From Roseomonas gilardii (lineage in GTDB: Bacteria; Pseudomonadota; Alphaproteobacteria; Acetobacterales; Acetobacteraceae): a stretch of 64,000 nucleotides of DNA. Each line of letters opens with the position of its first letter. The stretch's first letter is position 1. Positions 45,539 to 50,110 of the stretch are shown one piece after another. The DNA lies in the NCBI RefSeq assembly GCF_001941945.1, contig NZ_CP015585.1, positions 1 to 64,000 on the forward strand. The letters run 5' to 3'. The notes beneath the pieces were generated by a model that was given only the letters and a program-made list of their open reading frames with translations, was not told where the DNA came from and searched no databases. A program made the translations under genes and the position numbers.

Positions 45539-45619
45539 CGGATGACCGGCGCACTAGGTTCTGTGGACCCTTACCTGAGCCAGAGGATGGTGGCGGCGAG
45601 GGTGACCATGGCAAGATAG

Positions 45620-47236
45620 TTACGGGCAGTCTTCTCGTAACGGGTAGCGACACGCCGGAACTGCTTCAGCTTGGAGAAGCAGCACTCGATAGTCTGAACG
45701 CAAATGACAAATGCCTCCGGTCTGGGCAGCGGGGCTGGTGGGGATGACGTAGCGGATCTCGACCTCGCCATTGGTGACGATGACCCGGGTCACGAGCCAC
45801 TCGATTAACTGCCGCCTCTGCTCCCAGGTGGCTTGGTCGAGGCCTTGGCGGATGCGTCGGCTGAACTCTTCCAGGCTCAGGCCGAGACGCGCGATGTCTG
45901 CCTGTCGTTCGGTCTGGGCCGCCAGCTGCTGTTCCTGGGCAGCGAGGGCCTGTTGCCTCTGTTCGAGGTCACCGCGTCGGCGGCGATATTCATCGAGGCC
46001 CACCACACCGGCCAAGTAGACCTCGGTCAGTCGCTCGATCTGCTGCGCGACGCTGACCTGCCCGCGCCGGAGGGTCTCGCGGCGCGCTCGCAGTTCCTGC
46101 GGCAGCCAGTGGCCGCCATGAGCCCGCTCAAGCGCGTGGCGGATCGCCTCCGGATCGGTCAGGAGCTGGCGGAGATCCTCCCAGACGAGGGCCTCCACCT
46201 GACTGGCCGGAATGAACCGGGAGGGGCATGGAGTGTCCCGATGGGAGTTCACAGGCGAGAGCTTGCCGCGGCAGCAGTAGTAGCGGTGGCCCGCCGGCAG
46301 GCAGCGGCCGAGACAGGAGAGGCCACATACGCCACAGCTGACCAGCGCGCGCAGCAGATAGGGGTGGGCGGTGTTGTTGCGGCGGGCGAACTGCCGGTTC
46401 TGGGCGAGCTTGGCCTGGACGCGGTCGAAGCTCTCCTGGCTGACAATGGTCGGAATGGAGGCGACCGGGATCCACTCCTCGCGCGCTTGCAGGCGCCGGG
46501 GGGCCGTCTGGATGCGCCCCGCAAAGACCTCTCCCGTGTAGACGGGATTGGTCAGGATCCCGCGCAGGGTGGTGACGTTCCAGCGGCCCTTCACGCGCGG
46601 GGGTGGGATAGCGTCCGAGAGGAGTTTCTGCGCCAGTCCGTACAGGCTGCGCCCCTCCTCGCCATACCAAGCGAACATCTCGGCGACCGCTGCCGCCTCG
46701 GCCTCGTCGCATCGCACACCGGCCGGGTCGCGCGGCCGGTCCGGATCCACACGGTAGCCGTAGGGCGGCCTCGTCCAGGGGAGCAGGAGCCCGGCCTGCA
46801 GCTTGCGCAGGCGCCCCCGGCGCATGCGCTCTGCGATCAGGCTTCGCTCGTACTCGGCCACCGCGCCCCGGATCTGCAGCAGGAGCTGGTCATGCGGATC
46901 CTGGCTCATCGGCCGGTCAAGGAACTCCACCTGACATCCCGTCGCCGTGATCTCCTCCAGGAGTAGAACCTGATGCACGTAGTGCCGGGCCAGCCGATCG
47001 GGCGCGGTGATGAGCACTCGATCAAGATGGCGCAGCGCGGCACGATCGCGCAGGCGCTCAAGGCCCGGCCGCTTGAGACTGGCCCCGCTATACCCGTCAT
47101 CGCGGAAGATGTTCTCCGCCACCACCGTCCAGCCCTGGCTGGCGGCGTGCGCCTGCAGCCGATCGAGCTGCTGGGCAACGCCGTCGGCCTGGGCCTGACG
47201 TTGAGTGGACACCCGCGCATAAAGAGCGACCCTCAT
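45620..47236 (-). CDS. large serine recombinase
   Basis: 538 residues from the ATG at 47,236 (AAGGAGGAGG upstream). The catalytic domain opens MRVALYARVSTQRQ with Ser10; the DRLARHYVHQVLLLEE helix and EYERSLIAERMRRG follow. Then come the Recombinase domain (PPYGYRVDPDRPRDPAGVRC), a zinc ribbon (VSCGVCGLSCLGRC, with CPSRF later), a coiled coil (LEQRQQALAAQEQQLAAQTE) and a C-terminal tail. This is the large serine integrase architecture. The last 20-odd residues (from RVLLLQAEAV) are read through the left att junction from IS DNA, so the native C-terminus in the excised form differs. Confidence 0.92.
   Translation of the reverse strand: MRVALYARVSTQRQAQADGVAQQLDRLQAHAASQGWTVVAENIFRDDGYSGASLKRPGLERLRDRAALRHLDRVLITAPDRLARHYVHQVLLLEEITATGCQVEFLDRPMSQDPHDQLLLQIRGAVAEYERSLIAERMRRGRLRKLQAGLLLPWTRPPYGYRVDPDRPRDPAGVRCDEAEAAAVAEMFAWYGEEGRSLYGLAQKLLSDAIPPPRVKGRWNVTTLRGILTNPVYTGEVFAGRIQTAPRRLQAREEWIPVASIPTIVSQESFDRVQAKLAQNRQFARRNNTAHPYLLRALVSCGVCGLSCLGRCLPAGHRYYCCRGKLSPVNSHRDTPCPSRFIPASQVEALVWEDLRQLLTDPEAIRHALERAHGGHWLPQELRARRETLRRGQVSVAQQIERLTEVYLAGVVGLDEYRRRRGDLEQRQQALAAQEQQLAAQTERQADIARLGLSLEEFSRRIRQGLDQATWEQRRQLIEWLVTRVIVTNGEVEIRYVIPTSPAAQTGGICHLRSDYRVLLLQAEAVPACRYPLREDCP
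45685..45691. repeat. left core repeat CTCGATA (att junction)
   Basis: Same 7 bases as at 47,535-47,541. On the transposase strand it reads TATCGAG, covering part of the His-Leu-Ile-Glu codons, with GAG the catalytic Glu. Confidence 0.85.
45692..45712. repeat. left P-type arm of the recombinase element
   Basis: The 21 bases include CGCAAATGACAAAT and match the reverse complement of 47,511-47,531 at 19 of 21 positions. Likely recombinase binding half-site. Confidence 0.8.
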
Positions 47237-47393
47237 GGCTGACCTCCTCCTTGGGAGGCTCGGGACCGGCCGGGGCGGCGCACAGCGGCTCCGCCTCGTT
47301 CCAGGATAGGAGCTGCTGATAGGCTCGGTCCCGGTATCTCTGGCCGTCCGGATGGGGCTGGAACACCCGGCACACCCGCCACTCCCGCATCAT
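47097..47393 (-). CDS. small ORF upstream of and overlapping the serine recombinase
   Basis: 98 residues if read from the ATG at 47,393 (GGAGG just upstream). The first 55 residues look like a real protein (MMREWRVCRVFQPHPDGQRY, AYQQLLSWNEAEPL). The last 45 overlap the recombinase start in another frame. It could be a small regulator or directionality factor of the element; nothing proves this. The family is not recognised. Confidence 0.4.
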   Translation of the reverse strand: MMREWRVCRVFQPHPDGQRYRDRAYQQLLSWNEAEPLCAAPAGPEPPKEEVSHEGRSLCAGVHSTSGPGRRRCPAARSAAGARRQPGLDGGGGEHLPR

Positions 47394-47510
47394 GCCCTCC
47401 CGCCGCAGAGACCTCCTGCGCCAGGGGGAAAATGGCGGGGCGCTTCTCACGGCAGCGCAGCGGCATTCGCCACCAGCTCAACCTGAGCCGCCCAAAGCGG
47501 CTCAGGCAGA

Positions 47511-47531
47511 ATTTGTCATTTGCGATCAGGC
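47511..47531. repeat. right P-type arm of the recombinase element
   Basis: Contains ATTTGTCATTTGCG, the exact complement of the left arm core. It lies 3 bases inside the right core repeat. Confidence 0.8.
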
Positions 47532-47534
47532 CAT

Positions 47535-47541
47535 CTCGATA
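47535..47541. repeat. right core repeat CTCGATA (att junction)
   Basis: Second copy of the core repeat. With the left copy it defines the crossover region of the inserted element. Confidence 0.85.
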
Positions 47542-48263
47542 AGATGGCGCTCCTTGTAGAGCGTCTTGTTCAGCGGGTGCTTGAAGGTGCGCGACGGGTT
47601 GTTCGGGATGACAGCGATGGCGCCCGCCCTGGCGATAGCCTGGCGGAAGTGGTCGGCGTCATAGGCGGCGTCGGCCATGACGGCGGCGGGGCGGTCGTCG
47701 CCGAGCAGGGCGGCGGCCTGCGGCGCGTCGCCGCGATGTCCGGCCGTGAGCATGATCCGGGTGGGGCAGCCGAGCCCGCGGACGGCCAGGTGGATCTTCG
47801 TACTCAGGCCGCCGCGGGAACGCTCAATGGCCTGATCGCCAGACCCTTTTTTACCCCCGCCGCGTGCTGGTGGGCGCGAACGATGGTGCTGTCGATGATC
47901 AGGTACTCGAAGTCCGGGTCGTCAGCCATGGCCGCGAAGATGCGGTGCCAGACGCCTTTGGCGCTCCAGCGGCTGAAGCGGCGGAAGGCGCTGTTCCAGG
48001 CGCCGAACGCCTCCGGCAGGTCGCGCCAGGGAGAGCCGGTCCGCACGATCCAGAGCACCGCCTCGACGAACATCCGGTTGTCACGCCCAGAGGTGCCGCA
48101 GCTCCGCTCGTCACCGATGATGTGCTCGGAGATCCGGCACCACTGCGCGTCACTCAAGATCAGCCGGTCCGCGACGCCCATCCACCGCCTCCAAAAGGCA
48201 GCGTTGAATCACACCTGAAAGGCCGCGGGAATCCCGAGAGTCCACAAAACCTAACTCAGCCCA

Positions 48264-48977
48264 CTAGCTATCGAGCAACCTACCGATCTCCGAAACACGC
48301 GCGCGGAGCACCAAAAGTTCTGCTAACATGCGCCGCCGCTTCTCCAGCAACTGTTTACGTTCAACGTCAAGCGCGCGAAGATCAACTTTAGGTGCAGCTT
48401 TCTCAATAATCTCGCGCCGAAACGCGATGACAGCTGCGCGCGAAGTCCGGGGCGAAACAAGGCCTCTGCGCTGCGCCTCCTGTAGCTGTTCCGGTTCCAG
48501 TAGCGCAATCTGATATGCAGCACTATATGATCCGGGCAGCGCATCCTCGGGCACTCGACCCTCGTCAACCATTAAGGCCACACGACGGAATTGCGAAGCA
48601 ATAGGGTCGCTGAACGGGAACAAGCGATCACAGCCAGATTTCAAGCGTGCTCTTTCATCCCGTCCGTGTAAGGTCGCATCAAGGGCAACTAACGCGCGAC
48701 CAATCTCTAGAAACGACCTGCCAGCTCGCTCCCATGCGCTAGCAACTGTCCGCGTCGTATCGAGAACCACACGAATCAAAGCATCGTCTTCTACAACACG
48801 GGTCCCAGCGAAAACCTCCTGAACTGTTGCAAGGTCTTCAGCTTTGACAGCCATTACTTTATCCAGCTGAGCTGGACGAGAATCAGCGGTCGTGGGCACG
48901 TTCGTAGCATCGAGCACGTCAGCGTCGAGTGCGTCCAACGCCTTCCGGCTTAGGCGGCTTCCTGGCGCTCGGCTCAT
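48264..48977 (-). CDS. ParA-partner protein (ParB/KorB position)
   Basis: 237 residues from the ATG at 48,977, overlapping the parA stop (ATGA). No clear ParB nuclease-like box is seen. A helical middle (SAAYQIALLEPEQLQEAQRR, followed by GLVSPRTSRAAVIAFRREII) resembles a helix-turn-helix-bearing core, and the C-terminus is coiled coil (LEKRRRMLAELLVLRARVSE). Position and coupling make it the probable centromere-binding partner of the ParA ATPase. Base composition is less GC-rich than the surroundings, so the pair was probably acquired separately. Confidence 0.6.
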   Translation of the reverse strand: MSRAPGSRLSRKALDALDADVLDATNVPTTADSRPAQLDKVMAVKAEDLATVQEVFAGTRVVEDDALIRVVLDTTRTVASAWERAGRSFLEIGRALVALDATLHGRDERARLKSGCDRLFPFSDPIASQFRRVALMVDEGRVPEDALPGSYSAAYQIALLEPEQLQEAQRRGLVSPRTSRAAVIAFRREIIEKAAPKVDLRALDVERKQLLEKRRRMLAELLVLRARVSEIGRLLDS

Positions 48978-49660
48978 AGTCCGATCTCCCGTGCTGTGTA
49001 ACTCCACAAAGACTCGAAGACCTCTCCACTAGCTGGTCTACTCAAGTCCATCACACCCAACCCTTTGCCTGAGGCAAGTGGGATTTCCTCAAGTTGAGGC
49101 ACTTCGACTGGGCAGACCGGACCGACGGCGAGTAATTTCGCTCGGATTGTGGAAAAACTCTTTGCCCTTCGATTGCTTCGGTTGAGCACGAAGGCTGCAC
49201 GAGTCCGCTTGTCTGCGATTAGACGGGCCATCCAAGGCGCGGCCGAGTCTACATCGTCTTGCGTTTGCTGACACGGAACTAGGATCAAGTTAGCATTACC
49301 TGCTAGCGCAACAATACCGGAGATATTCAATTCAAGCGACGGTGGAGTGTCGACCATAATGATTCCCGCACCCATTGCGCGAGCTCTTTTCATGGCAGCT
49401 TGCCAATTATCCAGTTGACCGGCGATTACAGGAATCGCAGTGAGACCGGGTATGGAGGCCCGAACACGCTCCCTTCGTTGGGTCCAAGTAGAAAATGTAG
49501 CCTGCTGATCGTAGTCGATTCCAACCACTTGGTGACCTGCGCGGGCAGCCAGCACCGCAAGATTCCTAGCTAATGATGACTTCCCGACACCACCCTTTGG
49601 TGAGGAAAGCATAATAACGTGTTGCTTCACTGCGGTAACCCTTGATGGATACAGTGCCAT
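48974..49660 (-). CDS. ParA/MinD-type ATPase
   Basis: 228 residues from the ATG at 49,660; the longer frame to 49,780 has no ribosome site. The deviant Walker A motif is LSSPKGGVGKSSLARNLAVL, with a Walker B-like IIMVDTPPSLELNISG and a ParA-type PCQQTQDDVDSA. It should segregate the replicon or position DNA with its downstream partner. GC content is visibly lower than that of the transfer genes. No iteron or centromere repeat was recognised nearby. Confidence 0.85.
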   Translation of the reverse strand: MALYPSRVTAVKQHVIMLSSPKGGVGKSSLARNLAVLAARAGHQVVGIDYDQQATFSTWTQRRERVRASIPGLTAIPVIAGQLDNWQAAMKRARAMGAGIIMVDTPPSLELNISGIVALAGNANLILVPCQQTQDDVDSAAPWMARLIADKRTRAAFVLNRSNRRAKSFSTIRAKLLAVGPVCPVEVPQLEEIPLASGKGLGVMDLSRPASGEVFESLWSYTAREIGL

Positions 49661-50110
49661 AAGTAGCTTCGACAGCAGCAGCGCGCAAAATTTTACGGTG
49701 TAAAACGTTTCGAATTCGATCTGGGAATGGCGAATCGCTCGTGACGCGCGGCCGTGTGTAGAGATGGCAAACCATTTCAACGTGGATCATGGTTTCGACA
49801 CGGCGCGGGATCCCTAGTAGCCACGGGCAAGATGCTGCTAGAGACCAACCAGATGAATGCCATATTCAGCGCCCAACGACGTGGGAGAACGTGAAAGCTC
49901 GCCGAGTCAAGGCGTTTGGCCGCACAACCATAGCCTGGGCAGCGACCTACCAAAATTTTGGTGGCAAGTGAGGTGCCGCCCGACACCTTTAAGTCGCCGA
50001 GCTGGGGAATGCGCAGGGTGAGGATGGCGTCGGCAACCGAGCTAGGTTGGGCAGGTCGATCCGAGTTTGCGAGGTGCCTATCGGGACGCAAGGCTATCAT
50101 ACGGACGGTA
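49661..50110. other. 450-base stretch without a supported gene
   Basis: It lies upstream of parA and includes a transition from moderate to high GC. No conserved protein or repeat is visible. It may hold the parA promoter and the worn edge of the IS630 remnant. Confidence 0.45.

Follow-up and report, generated by a model that had tools for sequence, protein, structure and literature searches.

A minimal serine-recombinase element in the catalytic-glutamate codon of an IS5-family transposase, and its relatives in other mobile-element genes

An insertion of 1850 bp in the window (the whole stretch of 64,000 nucleotides analysed here) is interpreted as a minimal integrative element of the large serine recombinase (LSR) type, consisting of a recombinase gene, a small open reading frame (ORF) and a 52-bp attP, which has probably become a specialist parasite of other mobile elements; on the sequences compared, this reading is given a probability of about 0.88. 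The sequences display the element ends, the same core on both sides, active-site codons in frame, several sites per genome, and empty sites. It is also considered likely that elements of this kind, no larger than an insertion sequence (IS), are widespread and use unchangeable codons of mobile enzymes as attachment sites, namely those of DDE transposases, IS110 DEDD recombinases, an integron-type integrase and a group II intron reverse transcriptase (RT), switching target via the core dinucleotide and acting as a dedicated hyperparasite or natural silencer.

The insert carries its recombinase within an IS427-type transposase frame of the IS5 family, which it splits at the codon of the catalytic Glu, and it is bordered by the direct repeat CTCGATA (45685-45691 and 47535-47541; insert length between them 1850 bp). 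The unit length, the repeat and the clean interruption of the frame, all proposed in the initial annotation, hold at these coordinates. Deletion of the insert in silico rejoins the frame as ...LYKERHLI-E-CCFSKLKQFRRVATRYEKT... (LYKERHLI-E-CCFSKLKQFRR across the junction), which bears out the claim that removal restores the Y-R-E-K block. The transposase carries the Pfam domains DUF4096 and DDE_Tnp_1_2; the short 3' half of the split transposase scores slightly under the Pfam cut-off for DDE_Tnp_1_2. The host IS has the ends GGTTYTGTGGAC at 45557 and 48251 and a TA target duplication (Table 1). ParB-like and ParA-like partition genes (48264-49780) directly adjoin it, which fits a plasmid. The window is part of contig C3 of a genome of 5.4 Mb in five contigs, a search of which returned no second copy of the element and no intact copy of its host IS; contig C4 has a relative of this IS at 66%. 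The window's own empty site had no match in the plasmid search, and uninterrupted relatives of the host IS occur at 77-79% identity in genomes of the same genus.

Table 1. Features of the element and its host insertion sequence in the window, and insertion targets of related elements
Feature or target	Position or loci	Strand	Core	Remarks
Host IS, IS427-type, IS5 family	45557..48251	-		~845 bp without element; TA duplication 45555-45556, 48252-48253; from sequence, rejoined frame, Pfam
Serine-recombinase element	45686..47537	-		1850 bp, one core copy counted
5' part of split transposase	47541..48181	-		ORF A and ORF B up to Glu codon
3' part of split transposase	45571..45687	-		ECCFSKLKQFRRVATRYEKT...ILWLR
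Large serine recombinase ORF	45620..47236	-		538 aa; last residues from attR arm and IS
Small ORF	47097..47393	-		MMREWRVCRVFQPHPDGQRYRDRAYQQLLSW...; overlaps recombinase start; conserved in relatives and cousins
Core dinucleotide, attR (recombinase 3' end of element)	45686..45687		GA on - strand	Within Glu GAG codon
Core dinucleotide, attL (leader end of element)	47536..47537		GA on - strand
attP arm, recombinase 3' side	45699..45712			CGCAAATGACAAAT
attP arm, leader side	47511..47524			ATTTGTCATTTGCG
Main family, IS5/IS427	L001, L010, L011, L037, L078		GA
Main family, another IS5-type	L071, L073		GA	LYHQRWHI-E-SGFSQHKRR
Main family, IS4/Tn5-like	L012, L130		GA	RWKI-E-LFHKILK
Main family, IS1182-like	L087		GA	RKRV-E-MLFAHLK
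Main family, ISAs1	L017, L021, L104, L117		TC	HWGV-E-N
Main family, DDE_5	L022		TC
Main family, IS5	L079		TC
Main family, IS4	L080		TC
Main family, IS256	L081		TC	TNAI-E-SLN
Main family, IS6	L015, L032, L041		TC	-E-QDHRRVKR
Main family, IS3	L025, L038		TC	First catalytic Asp, ST-D-ITYV
Main family, IS5 N-terminal part	L030, L035, L042, L058, L067, L107		TA	Conserved Tyr, KTL-Y-NRF
Main family, IS110	L040		AA	GLDTS-K
Main family, IS110	L140
Main family, integron-type tyrosine recombinase	L027		TT
Main family, Ktedonobacter repeat	L018-L020, L024, L033; L142-L155		CA
Cousin, IS256			AT	IFPNDAA-I-IRLIGAVL
Cousin, IS5			GT	PKRWI-V-ERTIAW, codon before catalytic Glu
Cousin, IS110			TA	AMESTGV-Y-W
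Cousin, IS110			GT	VARKLA-V-ILHRMW
Cousin, group II intron RT			CT and CA	GTPQGG-L/C-SPLLAN

Joined to each other, the element ends form a 52-bp quasi-palindromic attP-like site in which the arm ATTTGTCATTTGCG (47511-47524) and its complement (45699-45712) match perfectly over 14 bp around a 24-bp centre, exactly as the arms and centre had been described beforehand. This attP reads ATTTGTCATTTGCGTTCAGACTATC-GA-GATGGCCTGATCGCAAATGACAAAT, with TATC-GA-GAT at its centre; on the + strand the core is TC at 45686-45687 and 47536-47537. Among the close relatives of the element (the main family), the attP is almost constant, TTTTGTCATTTGCGTTCAGACTAT(C/T)-NN-(G/A)ATGGTCTGATCACAAATGACAAATTCTG, and the core NN within this symmetric site of ~50 bp, which may be GA, TC, TA, CA, AA or TT, is equal on both sides in 31 of 31 intact two-ended sites. 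The core bases also agree in L138, an element copy into which an IS3 has inserted, and disagree only in L139, a decayed copy. A serine integrase, exchanging strands with a 2-bp stagger, leaves just such an identical 2-bp core on both sides. The bases common to both junctions in copies elsewhere are TCGA or just two, and by this comparison the crossover is the 2-bp GA of the GAG codon and not the 7-bp repeat, which is composed of the GA core and chance identity between this attP and this attB. The earlier placement of a TATCGAG crossover at the last DDE Glu codon is thus retained as to the GAG codon and corrected as to core length, from seven bases to two (GA).

The recombinase contains Resolvase (E 1.7e-34), Recombinase (E 7.7e-19) and Zn-ribbon (E 1.6e-7) domains, with PF00239, PF07508 and PF13408 above cut-off in that order, as is characteristic of large serine recombinases, and its catalytic-Ser block reads YARVSTQ. 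Its best PDB match is TP901-1 integrase, while the nearest NCBIfam model is XisF of the fdxN element (E 1.6e-36; 126 bits versus a cut-off of 375). Within the element the frame meets no stop codon; it reads through attR into the IS and ends at 45620 (C-terminal region 45620-45712). An in-element stop is likewise absent from every intact main-family copy and from ten cousins checked; in the main family the frame reads the right arm as ...CHLRxDY and the stop lies in the target. The small ORF, upstream of the recombinase gene and overlapping its start, follows the pattern W.IRR...PDGQRRWDRAYQLLLxW in the main family and W.IRSV.VRTRDGPxRLDQVYRRLL in the cousins. It has no match in Pfam or NCBIfam; its AlphaFold model features one confident helix (residues 17-34; mean pLDDT 72.7), and its codon-position count displays a modest third-position excess only (468/430/646). 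This ORF is a candidate directionality factor, recombinase partner or accessory protein.

Relatives were gathered by tblastn on plasmids, a genome contig scan, genome searches and fetched regions; element ends were located and flanks rejoined by script, after which the frames were read. The main family, with about 50-100% recombinase identity, is represented by 53 distinct insertion sites from several phyla, every one of which has attP halves that match; this count includes the genome scan, plasmids and further copies within the same genomes, and some of the sites are single junctions at contig ends. Its hosts comprise Roseomonas, Belnapia, Microvirga, Methylobacterium, Aromatoleum, Pseudomonas, Ktedonobacter, Leptolyngbya, Deinococcus and several MAGs. 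Because ORF length alone is not diagnostic in GC-rich DNA, target frames were assigned by Pfam or motif, and on this basis about 43 of the 53 sites lie in transposase or recombinase genes (~20 by Pfam and the remainder by motif, many single-junction targets being assigned from motif alone). Copies with a GA or TC core are almost always found at the catalytic Glu codon, rarely at Asp, of IS5, IS4/Tn5-like, IS1182-like, ISAs1, DDE_5, IS256, IS6 and IS3 transposases. Copies with the GA core run in the direction of the transposase and those with TC against it, so that the core of the latter is again the GA of the Glu codon, which is the rule predicted from a common GA codon. The initial annotation suggested looking for independent insertions at the same IS5 codon; the relatives differ in their outer flanks but share the arms and, on both sides, the two core bases, the majority of them sit in transposase genes, and the GA-core copies sit at the catalytic Glu codon.

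About 10 of the 53 sites are not clearly in genes for mobile-element enzymes. Five of these lie in a non-coding repeat, which in K. racemifer is found beside a Tn3 tnpA; L138 interrupts a histidine-kinase gene, L028 and L029 (Microvirga VF16) are in other genes or intergenic, and L014 and L023 also belong to this set. The CA-core copies of Ktedonobacter occupy a dispersed repeat of ~36 bp, GAAATGCGCGAAGCTGTCACCAGGGGCAAAGTAGCC, one copy of which lies just upstream of a Tn3-family tnpA in K. racemifer. At another Ktedonobacter locus, part of this repeat adjoins IS110 copies. At L016, in a transposase-like ORF that has no Pfam match, the Glu is unlikely to be the catalytic residue. L139, on a plasmid of R. 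mucosa AD1 (NZ_CP025190.1), is a frameshifted as well as decayed relative next to a ParA-type gene.

Class- and phylum-wide genome samples returned the own genome only, at E 1e-110, which indicates that the close family is patchy and not common. A peptide scan of viral contigs revealed no relative, and the best phage match is 30%. This patchy occurrence bears on the possibility that the element is a regulated gene-integrity switch serving the cell or the IS, which would silence the transposase and be excised on a signal, in the manner of the skin and fdxN elements. Such a role would accord with XisF as the best, although below cut-off, NCBIfam match and with the exact restoration of the transposase frame on removal; it is nevertheless unlikely, given the several copies in arbitrary IS families and off-target genes and the lack of any cargo, regulator or sign of developmental timing.

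The attB consensus of GA-type copies, ..TCTAC......CGC.......TC-GA-G...............CTCAAG, corresponds to the DNA of the Y-R-E-K block. Attachment-site-like motifs of this form number three in the whole 5.4-Mb own genome and zero in the reversed control; each of the three encodes the transposase block Y..R...E......K, and one is an intact IS5-type transposase frame. These unoccupied landing-site motifs lie at C3:65263-65307, C3:89371-89415 and C4:38772-38816, and two of them, which are identical, share the replicon of the element. The flanks of L138, in its histidine-kinase gene, have TAT (motif TAY) and CTCAAG at the same positions as the attB motif, which suggests recognition of the DNA sequence rather than of gene function. 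For a sister insertion, L071, the exact empty site is present at 100% identity over ~300 bp in three Roseomonas plasmids (R. mucosa), whereas other strains are split there. Element copies with 0 mismatches occupy four K. racemifer sites and four Microvirga VF16 sites, and those at three R. mucosa sites differ by 4-6 bases; such near or full identity between copies at separate sites of a genome or species points to recent movement. The proposal that conserved transposase active-site DNA acts as attB is therefore supported by the catalytic-Glu insertions and the empty site. The corollary that any IS of this group is a landing site holds in its core idea and is too narrow in its stated scope, since many transposase families are used and subclades occupy other conserved codons.

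An alternative is that a recombinase of loose specificity inserts in many places and that its insertions persist only where they do no harm, for instance in insertion sequences, the pattern reflecting selection and not targeting. Insertions in an IS are cheap for the host, a few sites do lie elsewhere (L138, L028, L029), and serine recombinases with many targets and weak motifs have been described (PMC10083194). This account is nonetheless very improbable, as it leaves unexplained the same codon, the same frame and the fixed orientation per core in unrelated transposase families, together with the rarity of the motif in the genome.

Cousin recombinases, at 33-38% identity, have other arms (CACGCCTCCCCCAATGTTGCAAA type) and the same targeting habit. 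With the cousin core set 11 bases outward from the CAATG in the arms, the flanks rejoin in frame, and the cousin targets (Table 1, which omits the group L051/L052/L082/L115) belong by Pfam to Transposase_mut, DDE_Tnp_1, DEDD_Tnp_IS110 and RVT_1, with Transposase_20 weak. In the recombinase tree, both core and target track the clade: the GA copies all fall together inside the main clade, and the groups that target RT and IS110 are each separate. Three identical cousin recombinases of Ktedonobacter sp. SOSP1-85 (L122, L123, L124) reside in group II intron RT genes with cores AG/TG, CT/CT and CA/CA, respectively, a difference unexpected under strict core matching; the mismatched pair at L122 may have been left by recombination with an unmatched core, through which an element could switch targets. 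At L114, the two flanks of one element come from two RT genes, and L023 of the main family has mixed flanks, IS5 on one side and apparently IS66 on the other. Both look as if two element copies had recombined and the genome had been rearranged.

The least probable account, a single old transposase insertion spread by the IS and by horizontal transfer so that the sites are not independent, draws on the occupied sites common to R. mucosa strains and on neighbours in similar IS4 elements (L012, L130), but as the main account it is refuted by identical elements with different flanks in different targets of one genome, by targets that are non-homologous or very distant (IS5, IS256, IS3, IS6, IS110, group II intron RT) and by the exact empty site.

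Serine integrases act through a circular intermediate and 2-bp staggered cuts, integrating by attP x attB recombination, which needs the recombinase alone; excision needs a directionality factor. Under the parasite reading, the recombinase would circularise the element via attL x attR, and the circle would integrate by 2-bp staggered exchange at the DNA motif for the Y-R-E-K block of DDE transposases, for which TAY-N6-CGN...TC-GA-R-N15-CTNAAR is proposed. Catalytic codons presumably cannot change without killing the transposase, so such a landing site would stay conserved and be present in many unrelated insertion sequences, and we infer that the targeting of these codons is an anti-escape strategy. 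Host insertion sequences may also ferry the parasite between replicons. Integration would inactivate the host IS and exact excision would restore it, while altered core bases and flanking recognition could move subclades to other immutable codons of mobile-element enzymes.

In its Resolvase, Recombinase and Zn-ribbon domains the enzyme resembles serine integrases such as phiC31, Bxb1, TP901-1 and TnpX/TndX, and it shares with these and with multi-targeting LSRs a quasi-palindromic attP of ~50 bp and a 2-bp core common to attL and attR. Unlike the elements of phage or ICE serine integrases, this one has no phage, ICE or cargo genes and its recombinase has no stop of its own; unlike that of known LSRs, its attB is an active-site codon motif of mobile-element enzymes. 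Assignment to a prophage, ICE or IME was rejected, as the 1850 bp hold one recombinase and one small ORF and no structural, conjugation or mobilisation genes. The integrases of helper-embedded PICIs, by comparison, are tyrosine recombinases. In helper-embedded PICIs an integrase clade repeatedly targets prophage late genes, the model PICI being 11 kb (PMC10111431); as here, one integrase clade favours the genes of another mobile element, with new sites by subclade, although these PICIs are phage satellites and the present element is a 1.85-kb serine-recombinase unit in transposase catalytic codons. DUF4368, which marks the multi-targeting LSR clade of Durrant et al. in 63% of its members (PMC10083194), was not found by Pfam scan in the recombinase, so membership of that clade is less likely, the feature not being universal there. 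The group II intron RmInt1 and its relatives also live in insertion sequences (PMC4238363) and, like the present element, home into an IS and may limit its spread; RmInt1 moves by RNA-based retrohoming with splicing, whereas the present element relies on DNA recombination without splicing, so that an occupied transposase stays broken. IS607-family elements are likewise small IS-like units moved by a serine recombinase, yet IS607 TnpA has an N-terminal DNA-binding domain, very loose target choice and a second gene, tnpB (PMC4058570, PMC6188088). IS607 membership was discarded: the catalytic domain here is N-terminal in a protein of 508-538 aa, no gene of tnpB size fits in 1850 bp, and the IS607 model scores 43 bits against a cut-off of 110. 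The fdxN XisF system, the nearest NCBIfam model, resembles the element in that excision would restore the interrupted gene; XisF equivalog membership was also set aside (126 bits against at least 375, and no developmental host gene).

The LSR enzyme class, nested parasites of mobile elements (helper-embedded PICIs, RmInt1) and multi-targeting serine recombinases are known already; searches of the open-licence PMC literature yielded no description of an IS-sized LSR clade devoted to the catalytic codons of such elements' enzymes. If the reading is correct, there is a clade of recombinases that land in the active sites of transposases resident in the genome, a choice of target that allows no escape, like that of homing endonucleases and inteins and made here by a DNA integrase, and IS activity in some bacteria would be predicted to be held down by hyperparasites. 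Integrases that differ in core dinucleotide and attB motif and have almost the same attP arms would constitute a natural series, making the evolution of new integrase specificity directly testable. Such recombinases are annotated as 'recombinase family protein', and several copies lack any annotation; at L077 (R. mucosa AD1, NZ_CP025193.1) the recombinase is annotated in two pieces, and in other strains it is a single gene at the same site.
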